A stretch of DNA of 64,000 nucleotides from an uncultured Jannaschia sp. (GTDB lineage Bacteria; Pseudomonadota; Alphaproteobacteria; Rhodobacterales; Rhodobacteraceae). The position numbers and the translations under genes are program-made. The notes below the pieces were generated by a model that was not told where the DNA came from, made no database searches, and worked only from the letters and a program-made list of their open reading frames with translations. The stretch spans positions 425,001-489,000 of the forward strand of contig NZ_CANNEZ010000001.1 of NCBI RefSeq assembly GCF_947503795.1. The letters are read 5' to 3'. Of this stretch, positions 48,979 to 52,991 are shown in pieces (positions within the stretch are counted from its first letter, which is position 1; each line of letters starts with the position of its first letter).

Positions 48979-50583
48979 ATGAATAGATTCTCTGAAGCGC
49001 TCCGAGACTTTGAGGCTACAAATTCTGGTCCTGTTCGAGAACGTGAAATTTTGCGTGTGGCCGGAGTTCTGCCAAACTGCAAATTCGTTGATGTTCGAAA
49101 ACAGGTTCTACTTTGGGCAAGAAAGAGAACACCATCTCAATTGCCGCAGGATGCTTGGAACGGTGGTCCTGTTGAAGTCCTGTCGGGTGGTCGGAGTGTT
49201 CATATTGAAACTCTTGAGACATCAAGCGGCAATCTTTGGGCATTTCGTAACGATGATCCAGACAAAAACGTACCCGGGCGCGTTTGGACCACCGAGGTAA
49301 CTGTAGGCGGCGAAGATAATCAAGACTTGATGCTGAGTCTAAGGCAGATGGTCTCAAGCAGTGAAGGTGAACTTCACATCGAACCCCATGTTCCGGGGCC
49401 CATCCTGCAGATCGCTGAAAAGCTGAACTTTATTTCTGGTGGAGAGGCGGTCTCGAAATCGCCAAAATACGTAAGAAATGAAAATGATTTGGCGAAGCTC
49501 CTTGACCTTATGGAGCGACCTCAGAGAGCGTTGCCTGTGATCATTGCTTCAGGCGACGAACGCTCGGACGACCCAGAAAAGCCATATATTGACATATATT
49601 CAATTGCACGGGCGTGCTGCGGATTAGCCCACTGTTTTGTTTTGCCTGCCGATTTCACCTACGGCTTGAGCAACGCGTTTGGAAAAGTCCGATCAGTCTT
49701 CCACGGCGGTGTCCGTATTTATCTGCCGGGGTTCTCCGGCCAATCTCGGCCGTTAGATCATCGGCTTTTTGTCGGAGATTCGTTGAAAGATATTGCGGGA
49801 CGAGAGCTATGTGAGAGCTCGCTGAGGCAATTATCTGCCCGAATTAGTTTGAGCAAAACCAGACTTGGTCGTGAGATTGTCACTTTTTCCTCCGTGCGGA
49901 GCGCCGCTAGTCGGAAGGCGGTTCCTGAACCCGTTTCCCCGATGGGAGTTGACGGAGAGGAAGTTGCGGCTATCCGTACTCAACTTGACGCCATGGAAGA
50001 TGAACTTACCGAGGCGAAAGCATGGGAAGAACAACTCACAAATCTTCATGATGAAATGGAGGAGCGAGCACTTGCTGCTGAGGGCCAAGCTTCAAGCGCC
50101 GCTTTCAGAATTCAGCAACTGCAAAGTTTGCTTGAAGCCAAAGGTACTGATCCCGATGAAGATGTCGAACTCCCGACATCTTGGAGTGAAATCGGCGATT
50201 GGATCGATATCAGGCTGGCGGGAAGACTAGTTCTCGTCCCATCAGCTAGGAGGAGCCTCAAAAAGGCAAAATTTGAAGATGTGAGTGCTGTTGCTAAAAG
50301 TCTACTTTGGCTTGCCGCCGATTGCCGAAGAAGAAGAATTTCCGGGGGGGGCTCTGTTGGAGAAGAGCCAATAATGGAAGGTGTCAGAAACGCTTCATGC
50401 GGCGGGGACACATTTGATTTTGAGCATCAGGGACAGAAAATGAAAGCCGATTGGCACGTCAAGAACGGCGGCAACACGCATGATCCCAAAAGGTGCCTCC
50501 GGATCTATTATGGCTGGGACCCCAATTCGACCCAAATAGTGGTCGCGTCGTTGCCCGCGCACGTAAAGACTGGTGCAAGTTGA
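48979..50583 (+). CDS. A+T-rich orphan multidomain protein, probable recent acquisition
   Basis: This 534-aa protein of unrecognised family is plainly richer in A+T than all neighbours, by eye near half G+C with many AAA, TTT and GAT codons. There are four apparent regions. The N-terminal domain (1-150) is beta-rich, with RVWTTEVTVGGED. The mixed alpha/beta domain (about 180-270) has IYSIARACCGLAHCFVLP and VFHGGVRIYLPGF. A coiled coil covers about 325-388. The C-terminal domain (about 430-534) ends LRIYYGWDPNSTQIVVASLP. The last pattern recalls RelE-like toxin-fold domains in mobile defence genes (by memory, weak). No transmembrane segment is visible. It stands alone between pncB and arfB. 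Confidence 0.85.
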   Translation: MNRFSEALRDFEATNSGPVREREILRVAGVLPNCKFVDVRKQVLLWARKRTPSQLPQDAWNGGPVEVLSGGRSVHIETLETSSGNLWAFRNDDPDKNVPGRVWTTEVTVGGEDNQDLMLSLRQMVSSSEGELHIEPHVPGPILQIAEKLNFISGGEAVSKSPKYVRNENDLAKLLDLMERPQRALPVIIASGDERSDDPEKPYIDIYSIARACCGLAHCFVLPADFTYGLSNAFGKVRSVFHGGVRIYLPGFSGQSRPLDHRLFVGDSLKDIAGRELCESSLRQLSARISLSKTRLGREIVTFSSVRSAASRKAVPEPVSPMGVDGEEVAAIRTQLDAMEDELTEAKAWEEQLTNLHDEMEERALAAEGQASSAAFRIQQLQSLLEAKGTDPDEDVELPTSWSEIGDWIDIRLAGRLVLVPSARRSLKKAKFEDVSAVAKSLLWLAADCRRRRISGGGSVGEEPIMEGVRNASCGGDTFDFEHQGQKMKADWHVKNGGNTHDPKRCLRIYYGWDPNSTQIVVASLPAHVKTGAS

Positions 50584-50587
50584 GAAT

Positions 50588-50619
50588 TGTAGGGCTGTCA
50601 GCACCCTATATACCCTACA
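50588..50619. terminator. Inverted repeat at the end of the orphan gene and arfB
   Basis: TGTAGGG (50588-50594) and CCCTACA (50613-50619) flank an A+T-rich 18-base loop that itself contains a smaller AGGG/CCCT pairing. The right arm includes the arfB stop codon. It may serve as a weak bidirectional terminator or mark an insertion boundary. Confidence 0.4.
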
Positions 50620-51034
50620 AATCCACCCCACCCCTCAACGCCTTCACCTCCCCCCGCCGCTTCTTCGCCTCCACCCGCTTGCGCTTCTGGTTGGCCGAGA
50701 CCCGCGTCTTCACCCGGCGCTTCGGCTTCACCGCGGCCGCGCGGACCAGCTCCACCAGCCGCTCGCGGGCCACCGCGCGGTTGCGGGCCTGGGAGCGTTC
50801 CTCGGAGGCCTGGATCACCACCGCGCCCTCCTTCGTCCAGCGCCGTCCCGCCAGCCGCCGGAGCCGGGTCTTCACCGGCCCCGGCAGGGACGGCGAGCGC
50901 TCCGCCTCGAAGCGCAGCTCCACGGCCGAGGATACCTTGTTGACGTTCTGCCCGCCGGGCCCCGAGGCGCGGACGAACTGCTCGGTCAGCTCCCAGTCCT
51001 GGATCTCGATCGCGTCGGTGACGTGCAGGGGCAT
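50615..51034 (-). CDS. arfB: Alternative ribosome-rescue factor ArfB (peptidyl-tRNA hydrolase)
   Basis: This 139-aa release-factor-like protein frees ribosomes stalled on truncated mRNA. It has the catalytic GGQ (27-29) in SGPGGQNVNKVSS and the basic C-terminal tail (KPKRRVKTRVSANQKRKRVEAKKRR) that enters the empty mRNA channel. The ATG at 51034 has GAGGAGG five bases upstream. A terminator lies 36 bp upstream, fed by a leader with a tiny ORF, so expression may be attenuated. SmpB of the other rescue system is also in this window. Confidence 0.95.
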   Translation of the reverse strand: MPLHVTDAIEIQDWELTEQFVRASGPGGQNVNKVSSAVELRFEAERSPSLPGPVKTRLRRLAGRRWTKEGAVVIQASEERSQARNRAVARERLVELVRAAAVKPKRRVKTRVSANQKRKRVEAKKRRGEVKALRGGVDL

Positions 51035-51070
51035 CCCGGCCTCCTCGGTGGTGGTGGCATCCGGCAAGAA

Positions 51071-51102
51071 GAAGGCCGCCCCTCGACAACGGGACGGCCT
51101 TC
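51071..51102 (-). terminator. Strong terminator between the leader ORF and arfB
   Basis: GAAGGCCGCCCC (51071-51082) pairs with GGGACGGCCTTC (51091-51102) through 12 bp (one G-U) across an eight-base loop. On the minus strand TTCTT follows. It lies just 37 bp before the arfB ATG, so transcripts from upstream must read through it to make ArfB. Confidence 0.85.
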
Positions 51103-51111
51103 CGAAAGTTC

Positions 51112-51239
51112 AGGAGGTGTGTCGGTTAGAGTGACCTCACCTACGGAGTTCTCATGCCTCAGGGCTGCCTCAGGCACGGACCTCCGGAGTTGTCCCGACG
51201 CTCTTCTCCACCATCTTTCTTGACACTGGATCACCTCCT
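51112..51239 (-). promoter_or_regulatory. Leader segment with long-range Shine-Dalgarno masking potential
   Basis: AGGAGGTG of the leader-ORF Shine-Dalgarno (minus strand, 51239-51232) is exactly complementary to CACCTCCT near the leader end (51119-51112), about 110 nt away. Between them lie a direct repeat (CCTGAGGCA twice, 51155-51174) and a CTCCGGAG palindrome. The distal arm is close to the terminator stem. Pairing of the two could change terminator folding or block translation. Confidence 0.5.
51170..51226 (-). CDS. 18-residue leader ORF with maximal Shine-Dalgarno
   Basis: GTG 51226 opens MSRKMVEKSVGTTPEVRA and a TGA stop. Upstream, GAAAGGAGGTGATCC matches the full 3' tail of 16S rRNA by complementarity over about 15 bases, and the spacing to GTG is seven bases. 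A start at ATG 51214 is also possible but is worse placed. No run of one amino acid codon suggests a classic biosynthetic attenuator. It sits between the queuosine-precursor transporter gene and the arfB terminator. Confidence 0.5.
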   Translation of the reverse strand: MSRKMVEKSVGTTPEVRA

Positions 51240-51296
51240 TTCGAATGTTGCCGATAGGTTGGAGGTTGGCACGGATTTTGTGTCGGTCAAGCCCCT

Positions 51297-51893
51297 TCAC
51301 GCAACCCGTTGTGCCAAATTCCGCGTGATGACGCGAAACGGCACCAGCGCGGCCAAGGCGACCGTCAGCTTCACCGCCCAATCTGCCAGCGCCAGCCCGA
51401 CCCAGAGCGGGCCCACGGCGGTCGGATCCTGGGCCCAGGACACGTCGCCCCAGGCCGCCGGAAACGCGATGAACCCGGCGAAGGCGATGGTGAAGAAGAG
51501 CGCCGTGTCGACGGTCGATCCCACCAGTGTCGAGAGGAGCGGCGCGCGCCACCAGCGGACCTCCGAGATGCGTGCGAAGATCGACACGTCGAGGAGTTGC
51601 GCCACGAGGAACGCGGTCCCCGAGGCGAGCGCGATGCGGAGCGTGACGAGCGGTCCGAACTCGCCGACGATCTGCGTCCCGATCAGCGAGCAGAGAAGCC
51701 CCACCGCGAAGCCCCAGAGCACGACGCGGCGCGCGCGGTCGGGGCCGTAGAGCCGGTTGGTGACGTCGGTGACGAGGAAGGCGAGCGGATAGGAGAAGGC
51801 CCCCCAGGTCAGCCAGCCGTCGGCGATGAGGAACTGGACGCCGATATTCGAGGCGACGACGATCGCCCCCATGGCGAGGATCGCGATGATCAT
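51297..51893 (-). CDS. Queuosine precursor transporter (YhhQ/VUT family)
   Basis: This 198-aa membrane protein has about six helices. It carries the family segment LTWGAFSYPLAFLVTDVTNRLYG (residues 28-50) and WWRAPLLSTLVGSTVDTALFF (about 113-133). The YhhQ family imports preQ0/preQ1 for queuosine in tRNA. No preQ1 riboswitch is evident upstream, and no queuosine synthesis gene is nearby. The tRNA-modification gene pair that follows upstream (MnmC parts) is a thematic match only. Confidence 0.9.
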   Translation of the reverse strand: MIIAILAMGAIVVASNIGVQFLIADGWLTWGAFSYPLAFLVTDVTNRLYGPDRARRVVLWGFAVGLLCSLIGTQIVGEFGPLVTLRIALASGTAFLVAQLLDVSIFARISEVRWWRAPLLSTLVGSTVDTALFFTIAFAGFIAFPAAWGDVSWAQDPTAVGPLWVGLALADWAVKLTVALAALVPFRVITRNLAQRVA

Positions 51894-51956
51894 GATGTGG
51901 TAACCCGTTTTGACATGGTGGTCGGAGACATGGCCCCGGTGGGGCAGGCGGGCCGT

Positions 51957-52991
51957 CTAGTCCTCCGCGCGCCACGGCGCAAGGGTGTCGGTGCGGAACG
52001 CCTCGGGGATGCGGTCGGTGCCGTCGAGGATGAGGTCGGCGATCGTCTCGGCCACCTTCGGGGCCATGCCGAAGCCGATCTTGAACCCGCCATTGGCGAT
52101 GAAGTGACCGGGTCGGCCGGGCCAGGCGCCCATCAGCGGCGCGCGGCTGCGGGCGCGGGGCCGGAGCCCGGCCCAGTGGCGCAGGACCGGTGCATCGGCC
52201 AGCACCGGAAGGGCGGCACGGGCGCGATCCAGCAGGTGGTCGGCCAGCGCGTCCGGGCGATCGTGATCGAACTCCCGCTCGGAGGTCGAGCCGATCGCCG
52301 TGGTGCCGTCGCCATGGGGCACGACATGCAGCCCGTCGAGATAGAGCTGCGGCGCGTCCCGTCGGTCGAGATCGAGAAGCACGGCCTGCCCCTTGATCGG
52401 CGCGCCTGCGGCACGTCCTCTGTCGTCCCGCATCTCGGCCAGCCCCTGCCAGCCCGTCGCGTGGAGGACGGGGCCGCGCTCGGTCGCATTTGTATCGATC
52501 GTGCCGCCGAGGGCGTGGATGGCCCGCGCCAGCGCATCGCAAGCCCGCGCGGGATGGATGCGCGCGCTGAGCGTGTCGCGGATCACCCGGTCGCCACCGG
52601 GGGACCAGTCCTTGGGCGCATCCACAACCTCCCACGTCGCGGCCCCGCGCCAGAGCGTTCGCGCCTCGACGCCCCGCGCCTCGGCCCGTTCAAGGGCGAC
52701 CGCGTCCGGGATCGGTTGCAATCGGCCGATCCGCGCGTACCCGGGATCGCCGCCGCCGATCTCCGCCACGGCCGCCCACCAGTCCGCCGCCATCAGAAGG
52801 CTGTCGAGCTGGAACGCCTTCTTGTCGTTCCACTGTTCGGGAACATGGGGCGCCAGCGCGCCGACGATCCCGCCCGACGCGCCCGCGCCGACGCCGGCCG
52901 GATCGACGACCCGGACCCGCGCGCCGCGCCGCGCCATCGCCCAGGCACAGGAGAGGCCGAACACGCCCGCCCCGCGGATGGTAACGTCCAT
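51957..52991 (-). CDS. FAD-dependent oxidoreductase, MnmC C-terminal-domain-like
   Basis: This 344-aa DAO-family flavoprotein has the motif IRGAGVFGLSCAWAMARRGARVRVVD (5-30), GASGGIVGALAPHVPEQWN, and a late FIANGGFKIGFGMAPKVAETIADL region. The divergent neighbour is MnmD. Together these correspond to the two halves of bifunctional MnmC, so this may be the enzyme that converts cmnm5(s2)U34 to nm5(s2)U34 in tRNA. A generic amino-acid oxidase remains possible. The start at 52991 leaves only 34 bp to mnmD. Confidence 0.8.
   Translation of the reverse strand: MDVTIRGAGVFGLSCAWAMARRGARVRVVDPAGVGAGASGGIVGALAPHVPEQWNDKKAFQLDSLLMAADWWAAVAEIGGGDPGYARIGRLQPIPDAVALERAEARGVEARTLWRGAATWEVVDAPKDWSPGGDRVIRDTLSARIHPARACDALARAIHALGGTIDTNATERGPVLHATGWQGLAEMRDDRGRAAGAPIKGQAVLLDLDRRDAPQLYLDGLHVVPHGDGTTAIGSTSEREFDHDRPDALADHLLDRARAALPVLADAPVLRHWAGLRPRARSRAPLMGAWPGRPGHFIANGGFKIGFGMAPKVAETIADLILDGTDRIPEAFRTDTLAPWRAED

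Follow-up and report, generated by a model that had tools for sequence, protein, structure and literature searches.

The DNA analysed here, referred to as the window, is a stretch of 64,000 nucleotides from an uncultured Jannaschia sp. of the family Rhodobacteraceae, and the features considered in the following lie on its minus strand (Table 1). Between a gene for a transporter of the YhhQ/VUT family and the ribosome-rescue gene arfB, an element was found that contains a predicted promoter, an extended Shine-Dalgarno (SD) sequence, a short open reading frame (ORF), a set of nested helices (P1 to P5) and an intrinsic terminator. A preliminary description of this locus, made from the letters alone, had pointed to a tiny ORF followed by a 12-bp terminator shortly before the arfB ATG, and to two exactly complementary segments further upstream. 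Both observations were borne out: the gap between the terminator stem and the ATG is 36 nt, and the complementary segments, with 112 nt between them, are the two strands of helix P1. The same unit, with a translated-looking ORF, a stem of SD and anti-SD, and a terminator, usually located before arfB, recurs in genomes of the same family, in agreement with the leader-like layout that had been proposed.

Table 1 Features of the yhhQ-arfB region of the window, in the order of transcription
Feature	Position	Strand	Remarks
Gene of the yhhQ/VUT family transporter	51297..51893	-	Stop codon 51299-51297; TIGR00697 above cut-off, PRK11212 below cut-off; PF02592
Predicted promoter of the element	51263..51290	-	-35 TTGACC 51290-51285; extended -10 TG 51271-51270; -10 CAACCT 51268-51263
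CC2171-like element, about 185-190 nt	between yhhQ (51893-51297) and arfB (51034-50615)	-	
Extended SD sequence GAAAGGAGGTGATCCAG	51226..51242	-	17 nt, putative complement of the 3' tail of 16S rRNA
P1, closing helix	51112..51239	-	AGGAGGTG 51239-51232 with CACCTCCT 51119-51112, exact complements of 8 nt; 99.4% of cells paired over 7 pairs in 97 rows
P2, start-codon hairpin	51207..51230	-	TCCAGT 51230-51225 with GGTGGA 51212-51207; 98.8% of cells paired
18-codon ORF, peptide MSRKMVEKSVGTTPEVRA	51170..51226	-	GTG 51226 to TGA 51172-51170; conserved start and stop
P3	51121..51199	-	GTCGG 51199-51195 with CCGAC 51125-51121; 95.4% paired; double changes in 4/5 pairs
P4, helix within P3	51138..51192 (limits approximate)	-	89.6% paired; double changes in 6/7 pairs, 97 rows
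P5, stop-codon hairpin	51151..51178	-	CAGC loop; 77.9% paired; double changes in 5/6 pairs; present in the window fold
Intrinsic terminator with a 12-bp stem and a run rich in T	51066..51102	-	GAAGGCCGTCCC 51102-51091 with GGGGCGGCCTTC 51082-51071, 12 pairs, one G-U, then TTCTT; 99.6% paired (8 pairs in the model); double changes in 7/8 pairs
SD-like GAGGAGG of arfB	51046-51040	-	Read from the window letters
arfB ATG	51034	-	36 nt past the end of the terminator stem
arfB, downstream neighbour	50615..51034	-	NF006718, 173 bits (cut-off 100); Pfam RF-1, PF00472

The neighbourhood of the element was compared among relatives. The upstream neighbour is yhhQ at every one of the first 30 loci; the gene was likewise found at 74 of 80 named loci and at all of L034-L067 except L046 and L059. 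In 48 of the 74 named loci that have it, the yhhQ match ends 54-62 nt ahead of the element. arfB follows directly downstream in 24 of the first 30 loci and in 19 of 24 further genomes of the same family. Among 74 named loci with enough sequence it lies at most 400 nt from the element in 47, and anywhere downstream on the same strand it was found in 53 of 74 named loci; these sets of 30, 24 and 74 loci overlap in part. One of the relatives that carry the element ahead of arfB is Cereibacter johrii (L216). yhhQ is the more constant neighbour of the element, and since genomes of the class are also found that carry the element without an arfB match, the case for a dedicated linkage to arfB is weakened. 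The gap between terminator and arfB has a median of 43 nt (84 loci with a readable start). In five loci (L007, L009, L013, L062, and L240) this gap holds short repeats such as CGTATGG or GTACACACCCC. In the arfB gene of L018, the glutamine codon of the GGQ motif is replaced by TAG, which may reflect a pseudogene, a sequencing error, or recoding. In the window, a 534-aa ORF on the plus strand (48979-50583) converges on arfB; its G+C content is about 0.48-0.53, compared with 0.68 around it. Searches of Pfam and NCBIfam assigned it to no family. Among candidate defence models, HEC-07 of PADLOC (PDLC04161) matches it with E 1.4e-163; it has the appearance of an acquired defence gene.

The predicted promoter of the element has its -35 hexamer just past the yhhQ stop codon. 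TTGAC occurs in the searched stretch upstream of the SD sequence in 97 of 117 distinct loci, and loci aligned on it yield the pattern TTGACA-N16-CANNcT, in which the two bases of the extended -10 TG are conserved to 96 and 97%, the A at -11 to 97%, and the T at -7 to 98%. The -10 hexamer CAACCT departs from TATAAT, and a generic scan that relied on its own consensus reported no sigma-70-type promoter in 50300-52000 and did not report the predicted promoter of the element. The alignment of the loci supports a conserved promoter motif belonging to the element itself, from which transcription would start near 51255.

The stretch 51256-51068 folds with -87.5 kcal/mol, compared with -64.9 +/- 4.3 kcal/mol for shuffled sequences (z = -5.2; none of 200 shuffles as good). 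For a comparative analysis of this fold, we used alignment A3, which comprises 100 loci reduced to 97 distinct rows and which is biased in favour of the structure, having been fitted to the model. Over the whole fold, 93.8% of the cells of the 97 distinct homologues are paired, a value that falls to 52-55% when the partners are slid by one column. Double changes were found in 23 of 39 pairs, the shuffled mean being 13.0 and none of 500 shuffles as high, and the covariation score is 0.263 versus 0.158. A like result was obtained with the MAFFT alignment A1 (17 pairs with double changes versus 8.7 in shuffles); A1 and a further alignment, A2, misplaced P1 and P5 in part. The covarying pairs which the preliminary description had proposed to look for in upstream regions of relatives exist, and they reside in P3, P4, P5, and the terminator. 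P1, in which the SD sequence pairs with CACCTCC, shows one-sided changes only in the 97 rows and is supported by consistency instead of covariation, because its 5' side is the SD sequence; P2 is nearly invariant and therefore covaries little (in one of its six pairs). In the minimum free energy structure of the window genome, P4 is shifted to around CGGAG/CTCCG. The terminator before arfB was returned by a generic terminator scan as stems of 5 and 6 pairs only.

The element is widespread in the family. Leader DNA was detected in 46 of 61 same-family genomes, and a covariance model derived from alignment A1 (29 loci, the initial set of 30 without L028, whose terminator end the script missed) matched 226 of 248 same-family genomes taken one per genus, 208 of them at E <1e-10. 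The ORF and the stems are thus strongly conserved in relatives, a lack of which would, according to the preliminary description, have spoken against its proposal. The Rfam search suggested there gave a divided answer: at the gathering score nothing was found in the element stretch, the only two matches in the window being a tRNA and an SRP RNA elsewhere, whereas at a relaxed threshold CC2171 (RF01867), and only this family, was matched over the full model (1-159 of 159, window 51250-51073) with 41.2 bits, below the gathering score of 75 (E 1.2e-7 with 261 bases given, 3.9e-7 for the whole genome). Of 278 genomes sampled across the class Alphaproteobacteria, 58 contain an RF01867 match at E 0.001, 33 of these at 1e-6, and seven scored above the gathering cut-off; Caulobacter vibrioides, which was among the controls, also exceeded it. 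The class-wide counts are from strictly filtered searches with weak matches included, the tables for element and arfB being paired by genome name on the premise that both describe one and the same sample of 278. In genomes of other families (among them G250, G341, G339, G333, and G409), the covariance model and RF01867 match the same coordinates, for G250 with E values of 1.8e-7 and 2.3e-9, respectively. Such intermediate homologues appear to link the element to the CC2171 group, and on the basis of these matches the element looks like a distant relative of the CC2171 sRNA. The original paper on the Caulobacter sRNAs is reportedly that of Landt from 2008. No published function for CC2171/RF01867 was found in the open-access papers searched, a coverage outside which most subscription journals lie. 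For a CC2171 homologue of Mesorhizobium huakuii, an RNA-seq product seems to be given in a published table (PMC5596092).

The architecture of the element is largely retained in the out-group. At 28 of 29 out-group loci an ORF of 18-35 codons begins with ATG or GTG 7 nt after GGAGG, with peptides that start with MSHCH, MSR, MSNE, and others. Pairing energies were computed between the ORF start and the 25-nt segment preceding the terminator: the own combination reached -21.9 kcal/mol and swapped combinations -16.1 +/- 0.6 kcal/mol with a minimum of -17.4 in 200 (26 of 29 loci; for three the script gave no terminator). As the pairing of ORF start and 3' strand is better with the own partner than with a swapped one, the closed-rod design is shared by the out-group. 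Within the family, a divergent form, subtype C, was recognized in five of eight yhhQ-arfB gaps that were read and in 6 of 29 genomes searched; in the other three of the eight gaps no element was seen, even though the two genes have stayed close together. The 22 of 248 genomes that lack a covariance-model match partly hold subtype C (20 of the 22 were tested for arfB). Subtype C encodes a different peptide and lacks the extended 16S complement; it again contains CACCTCC, most of its members have by eye a start-codon hairpin CCAAU/AUUGG, the stop-codon hairpin has a GCAG-type loop, and in 6/6 genomes it is located directly before arfB. The subtype C loci L156, L165, L167, L169, and L172 read GGAGGTGCCAATG... 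or GGAGGTGCCTATG....

The position of the element raises the question of how arfB itself is transcribed. In the window, arfB has an SD sequence and no TANNNT motif, and a promoter could scarcely be fitted into the gap to the terminator; some read-through into arfB may well occur in this genome. An SD-like motif precedes just 7 of 89 adjacent arfB starts, which makes the window genome a representative of the rarer type. In other relatives the start of arfB is preceded by a -10-like motif: TANNNT occupies -13..-11 of the ATG at 20 of the 89 adjacent loci, where shuffling gives 2.2 on average and never more than 8, and it was found there in 6 of 11 arfB genes uncoupled from the element (shuffled mean 0.2), and in 6 of 11 arfB genes of genomes with no or a weak model match, some with subtype C (shuffled mean 0.2); the exact motif is missing before 69 of the 89 adjacent starts. 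This pattern suggests leaderless arfB transcripts that begin past the terminator in part of the family. Transcription of arfB from downstream of the terminator, which the preliminary description had named as an observation that would count against its proposal, is accordingly indicated for part of the relatives and not for the window. The alternative that survives best is passive read-through, in which an independent element ends in a leaky terminator and part of the arfB mRNA originates from the promoter of the element or of yhhQ, with no regulation by the ORF. The 36-nt gap and the SD-led arfB of the window fit this idea, as do the 44 of 84 gaps shorter than 45 nt by the script's measure; the 12-bp terminator stem argues against it, and so do the putative promoters of arfB that TANNNT suggests in part of the relatives, adjacent and uncoupled. 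We regard it as possible, well short of even odds, and it is compatible with the explanation of the element as an autonomous RNA.

The preliminary description had interpreted the locus as a transcription attenuator with a rescue feedback, in which the behaviour of ribosomes on the leader ORF selects between terminator and antiterminator and thereby controls arfB. The order of promoter, ORF, terminator, and arfB speaks for this model, as do the short median gap, the usual adjacency of arfB, the joint absence of element and arfB from 12 of 17 element-negative family genomes, and the location of subtype C directly before arfB wherever it was found. No covarying antiterminator was detected in a swap test over 97 rows: the leader pairs with the 5' arm of its own terminator with -19.7 kcal/mol and with swapped arms with -19.9 kcal/mol. 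The controls of this test worked (P4 own -8.9 versus swapped -5.3 kcal/mol; terminator own -23.9 versus swapped -18.7 kcal/mol). For P5 alone against the terminator arm, the own combination gave -16.2 kcal/mol and the swapped ones -16.0 +/- 0.2 kcal/mol, one standard deviation in favour, so that a weak effect is possible. A candidate antiterminator, GGCAGCCCUU of P5 with the 5' arm of the terminator, is convincing by eye in single sequences, shows no covariation, and was rejected.

The element is also retained in genomes whose arfB lies elsewhere. Of 54 family genomes, 11 have the element with no arfB close by. All 11 nonetheless possess arfB: seven carry it on a different contig or at a distance of megabases, one at some 12 kb on the opposite strand, and three on the same strand as the element, 1.6-7.4 kb farther downstream. 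At 21 uncoupled named loci, the next gene predicted by heuristic gene calls is convergent in 11 and on the same strand in 10; at the out-group loci it is co-directional in 18 of 29, some of these heuristic calls being surely spurious. Of the element-bearing genomes of the class, 23 of 58 have no arfB match, and 10 of 33 when the element is required at E <=1e-6, some of these genomes being incomplete. In about 1.5 kb on either side of the out-group loci, some of which are weak model matches, arfB was seen only at L086, on the other side of the match, and weakly at L102. Taken with the negative search for an antiterminator and with the -10-like motif that some relatives have past the terminator, the persistence of the element apart from arfB leaves attenuation of arfB mostly unsupported, and we consider this explanation very unlikely. 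No description of an attenuation of arfB was found in the open-access literature searched.

The short ORF bears marks of being translated. The SD complement reaches into the start codon by one base, and its sequence includes the initial 15 nt of AAGGAGGTGATCCAGCC, which we take to be a reverse primer for the 16S 3' end; this word occurs in papers together with 16S rRNA. No 16S 3' ends were found in the genomes searched, and the pairing with the organism's own 16S rRNA is a predicted one. The full 17-mer is kept in 56 of 97 homologues, and a perfect run of at least 11 nt in all 97. The length of the ORF is exactly 18 codons in 92 of the 97 homologues, and codon 19 is TGA in 40, TAA in 26, TAG in 26, TGG in none, and another codon in 5 of the 97 rows, a distribution that departs from independence of its last two bases (Fisher 1e-8 over all 97 rows, relatedness ignored). 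Because the stop codons at position 19 are interchangeable, TGG is absent, and the length of 18 codons is kept, the stop appears to be selected, and therefore ribosomes should arrive at it.

Selection on the encoded peptide is not visible in the same data. In the 92 ORFs of 18 codons, pN/pS is 0.75, 0.74, and 0.75 in frames 0, +1, and +2, respectively, and the variability at codon positions 1, 2, and 3 is 0.209, 0.217, and 0.205. With codon positions equally variable and pN/pS equal in the three frames, the conserved letters of the ORF seem to serve the RNA and not the peptide, and the ORF seems to be kept for being translated, with an indifferent product, as judged from these substitution patterns; an overlapping constraint on the RNA could mask a weak selection on the peptide. 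That the 18-residue peptide is itself the product, a small functional protein, would agree with the conserved length of the ORF and with conserved residues such as S2, R3, L6, E7, V10, G11, and T12, and is scarcely probable in view of the frame comparison and of the different peptides encoded by subtype C and by other families. Equally hard to credit is a ribosome-binding RNA that would capture 30S subunits through its 17-nt complement to the 16S tail, with a secondary role of the ORF: the 17-mer of the homologues and the similar extended SD in most of 27 out-group loci inspected speak for it, and the maintenance of start and stop codons, which indicates translation, the restriction of 30 of 97 homologues to just the 11-nt perfect run (GGTGGTCC and GGTGCTTC forms), and the loss of the extension in subtype C speak against it.

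The element and arfB are statistically associated. arfB is present in all 60 element-bearing family genomes tallied (43 adjacent, 11 elsewhere, 6 with subtype C) and in 5 of 17 family genomes without a detectable element (Fisher 1.7e-10); when six weak-match genomes are added to the latter, it is present in 11 of 23 (Fisher 1.4e-8). Class-wide, it was found in 35 of 58 element-bearing and in 55 of 220 other genomes (1.1e-6). All three probabilities ignore relatedness, completeness, and genome size. The co-occurrence could reflect a functional tie, a joint deletion of the two neighbours, or small genomes that lack both.

Our favoured interpretation, to which we assign a probability of roughly 0.64, is that the element specifies an autonomous sRNA of the CC2171 superfamily with its own promoter and terminator, which is opened by the translation of a peptide-indifferent ORF, and that arfB is mainly a syntenic neighbour. 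The homology to CC2171, the promoter motif, the fold, the conservation of ORF start and stop, the lack of visible selection on the peptide, and the uncoupling from arfB are supported by the sequences; that the element is transcribed as one RNA and that this RNA switches between closed and open states is what we infer. Transcription would begin at the extended -10 promoter of the element and end at its terminator, yielding an RNA of about 185-190 nt. In the closed rod, P1 would hide the SD sequence, the start codon would lie in P2, and the stop codon in an arm of P5. The near-perfect SD sequence would load ribosomes early, ahead of the synthesis of the 3' strand of P1, and the reading of the 18 codons would open P1-P5 and leave the 3' half single-stranded; without ribosomes, P1 would close and the SD would be hidden. 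Translation would thus toggle between the closed and the open RNA and alter its stability or the pairing of its 3' half, and selection would act on the translation of the RNA and not on the identity of the peptide. In some of the relatives, arfB seems to be served by a promoter of its own. The CC2171 score below the gathering cut-off, the usual adjacency of arfB, its co-occurrence with the element, the arfB of the window with an SD, without TANNNT and with little space for a promoter, and the lack of an exact TANNNT before most adjacent arfB starts count against this interpretation.

A bolder extension, which we consider unlikely as it stands, is that of a class-wide alphaproteobacterial RNA that gauges the availability of ribosomes (30S subunits) by means of a content-free ORF, its frequent place before arfB in Rhodobacterales tying a shortage to the rescue capacity. 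If this were true, free ribosomes would hold the RNA open and a shortage would close it, the co-occurrence of element and arfB would be functional, and a rescue feedback loop would operate via read-through or RNA stability and not via classical attenuation. An RNA detected in most of the sampled genera of the Rhodobacteraceae gives the Rfam entry CC2171 a concrete and testable form, and should the toggle be confirmed, CC2171 would represent a family of RNAs gated by translation that spans the Alphaproteobacteria.

Several known systems invite comparison. In leader-peptide attenuators of the trp type, a short ORF is located ahead of an intrinsic terminator, and the element resembles them in this order; it differs in that no antiterminator, no constant downstream gene, and no obvious run of regulatory codons was found, so that neither the mutually exclusive terminator and antiterminator nor the always co-directional downstream gene of such attenuators is seen. 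The rescue gene arfA is controlled by an internal terminator or RNase III and by tmRNA, a stem within the gene giving rise to a non-stop mRNA. Both arfA and arfB have a terminator nearby, in arfA inside the gene and in arfB before it; the stem found at arfB, ending 36 nt ahead of the ATG, is not placed within the rescue gene as one that truncates the mRNA would be. Regulatory upstream ORFs are known in which translation and not the product matters, and the element is like these in its conserved start and stop codons and its free peptide and unlike them in being apparently an autonomous RNA with its own terminator. For the Rhodobacteraceae branch, the SD-closing helix, and the peptide-indifferent ORF, no description was found in the literature searched, which includes few subscription journals. 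The closest counterparts are the CC2171 homologues, filed in Rfam as an sRNA gene, which share with the element the order of extended SD, short ORF, closing helix, and terminator. P1 of the Rhodobacteraceae element pairs the SD sequence itself, whereas most out-group CC2171 loci pair the first codons, with the exception of L131, L132, L141, and L143, in which the closing helix involves the SD as in the Rhodobacteraceae; the covarying helices P3-P5, the location between yhhQ and arfB, and the 18-codon ORF with interchangeable stop codons further set the element apart from CC2171.
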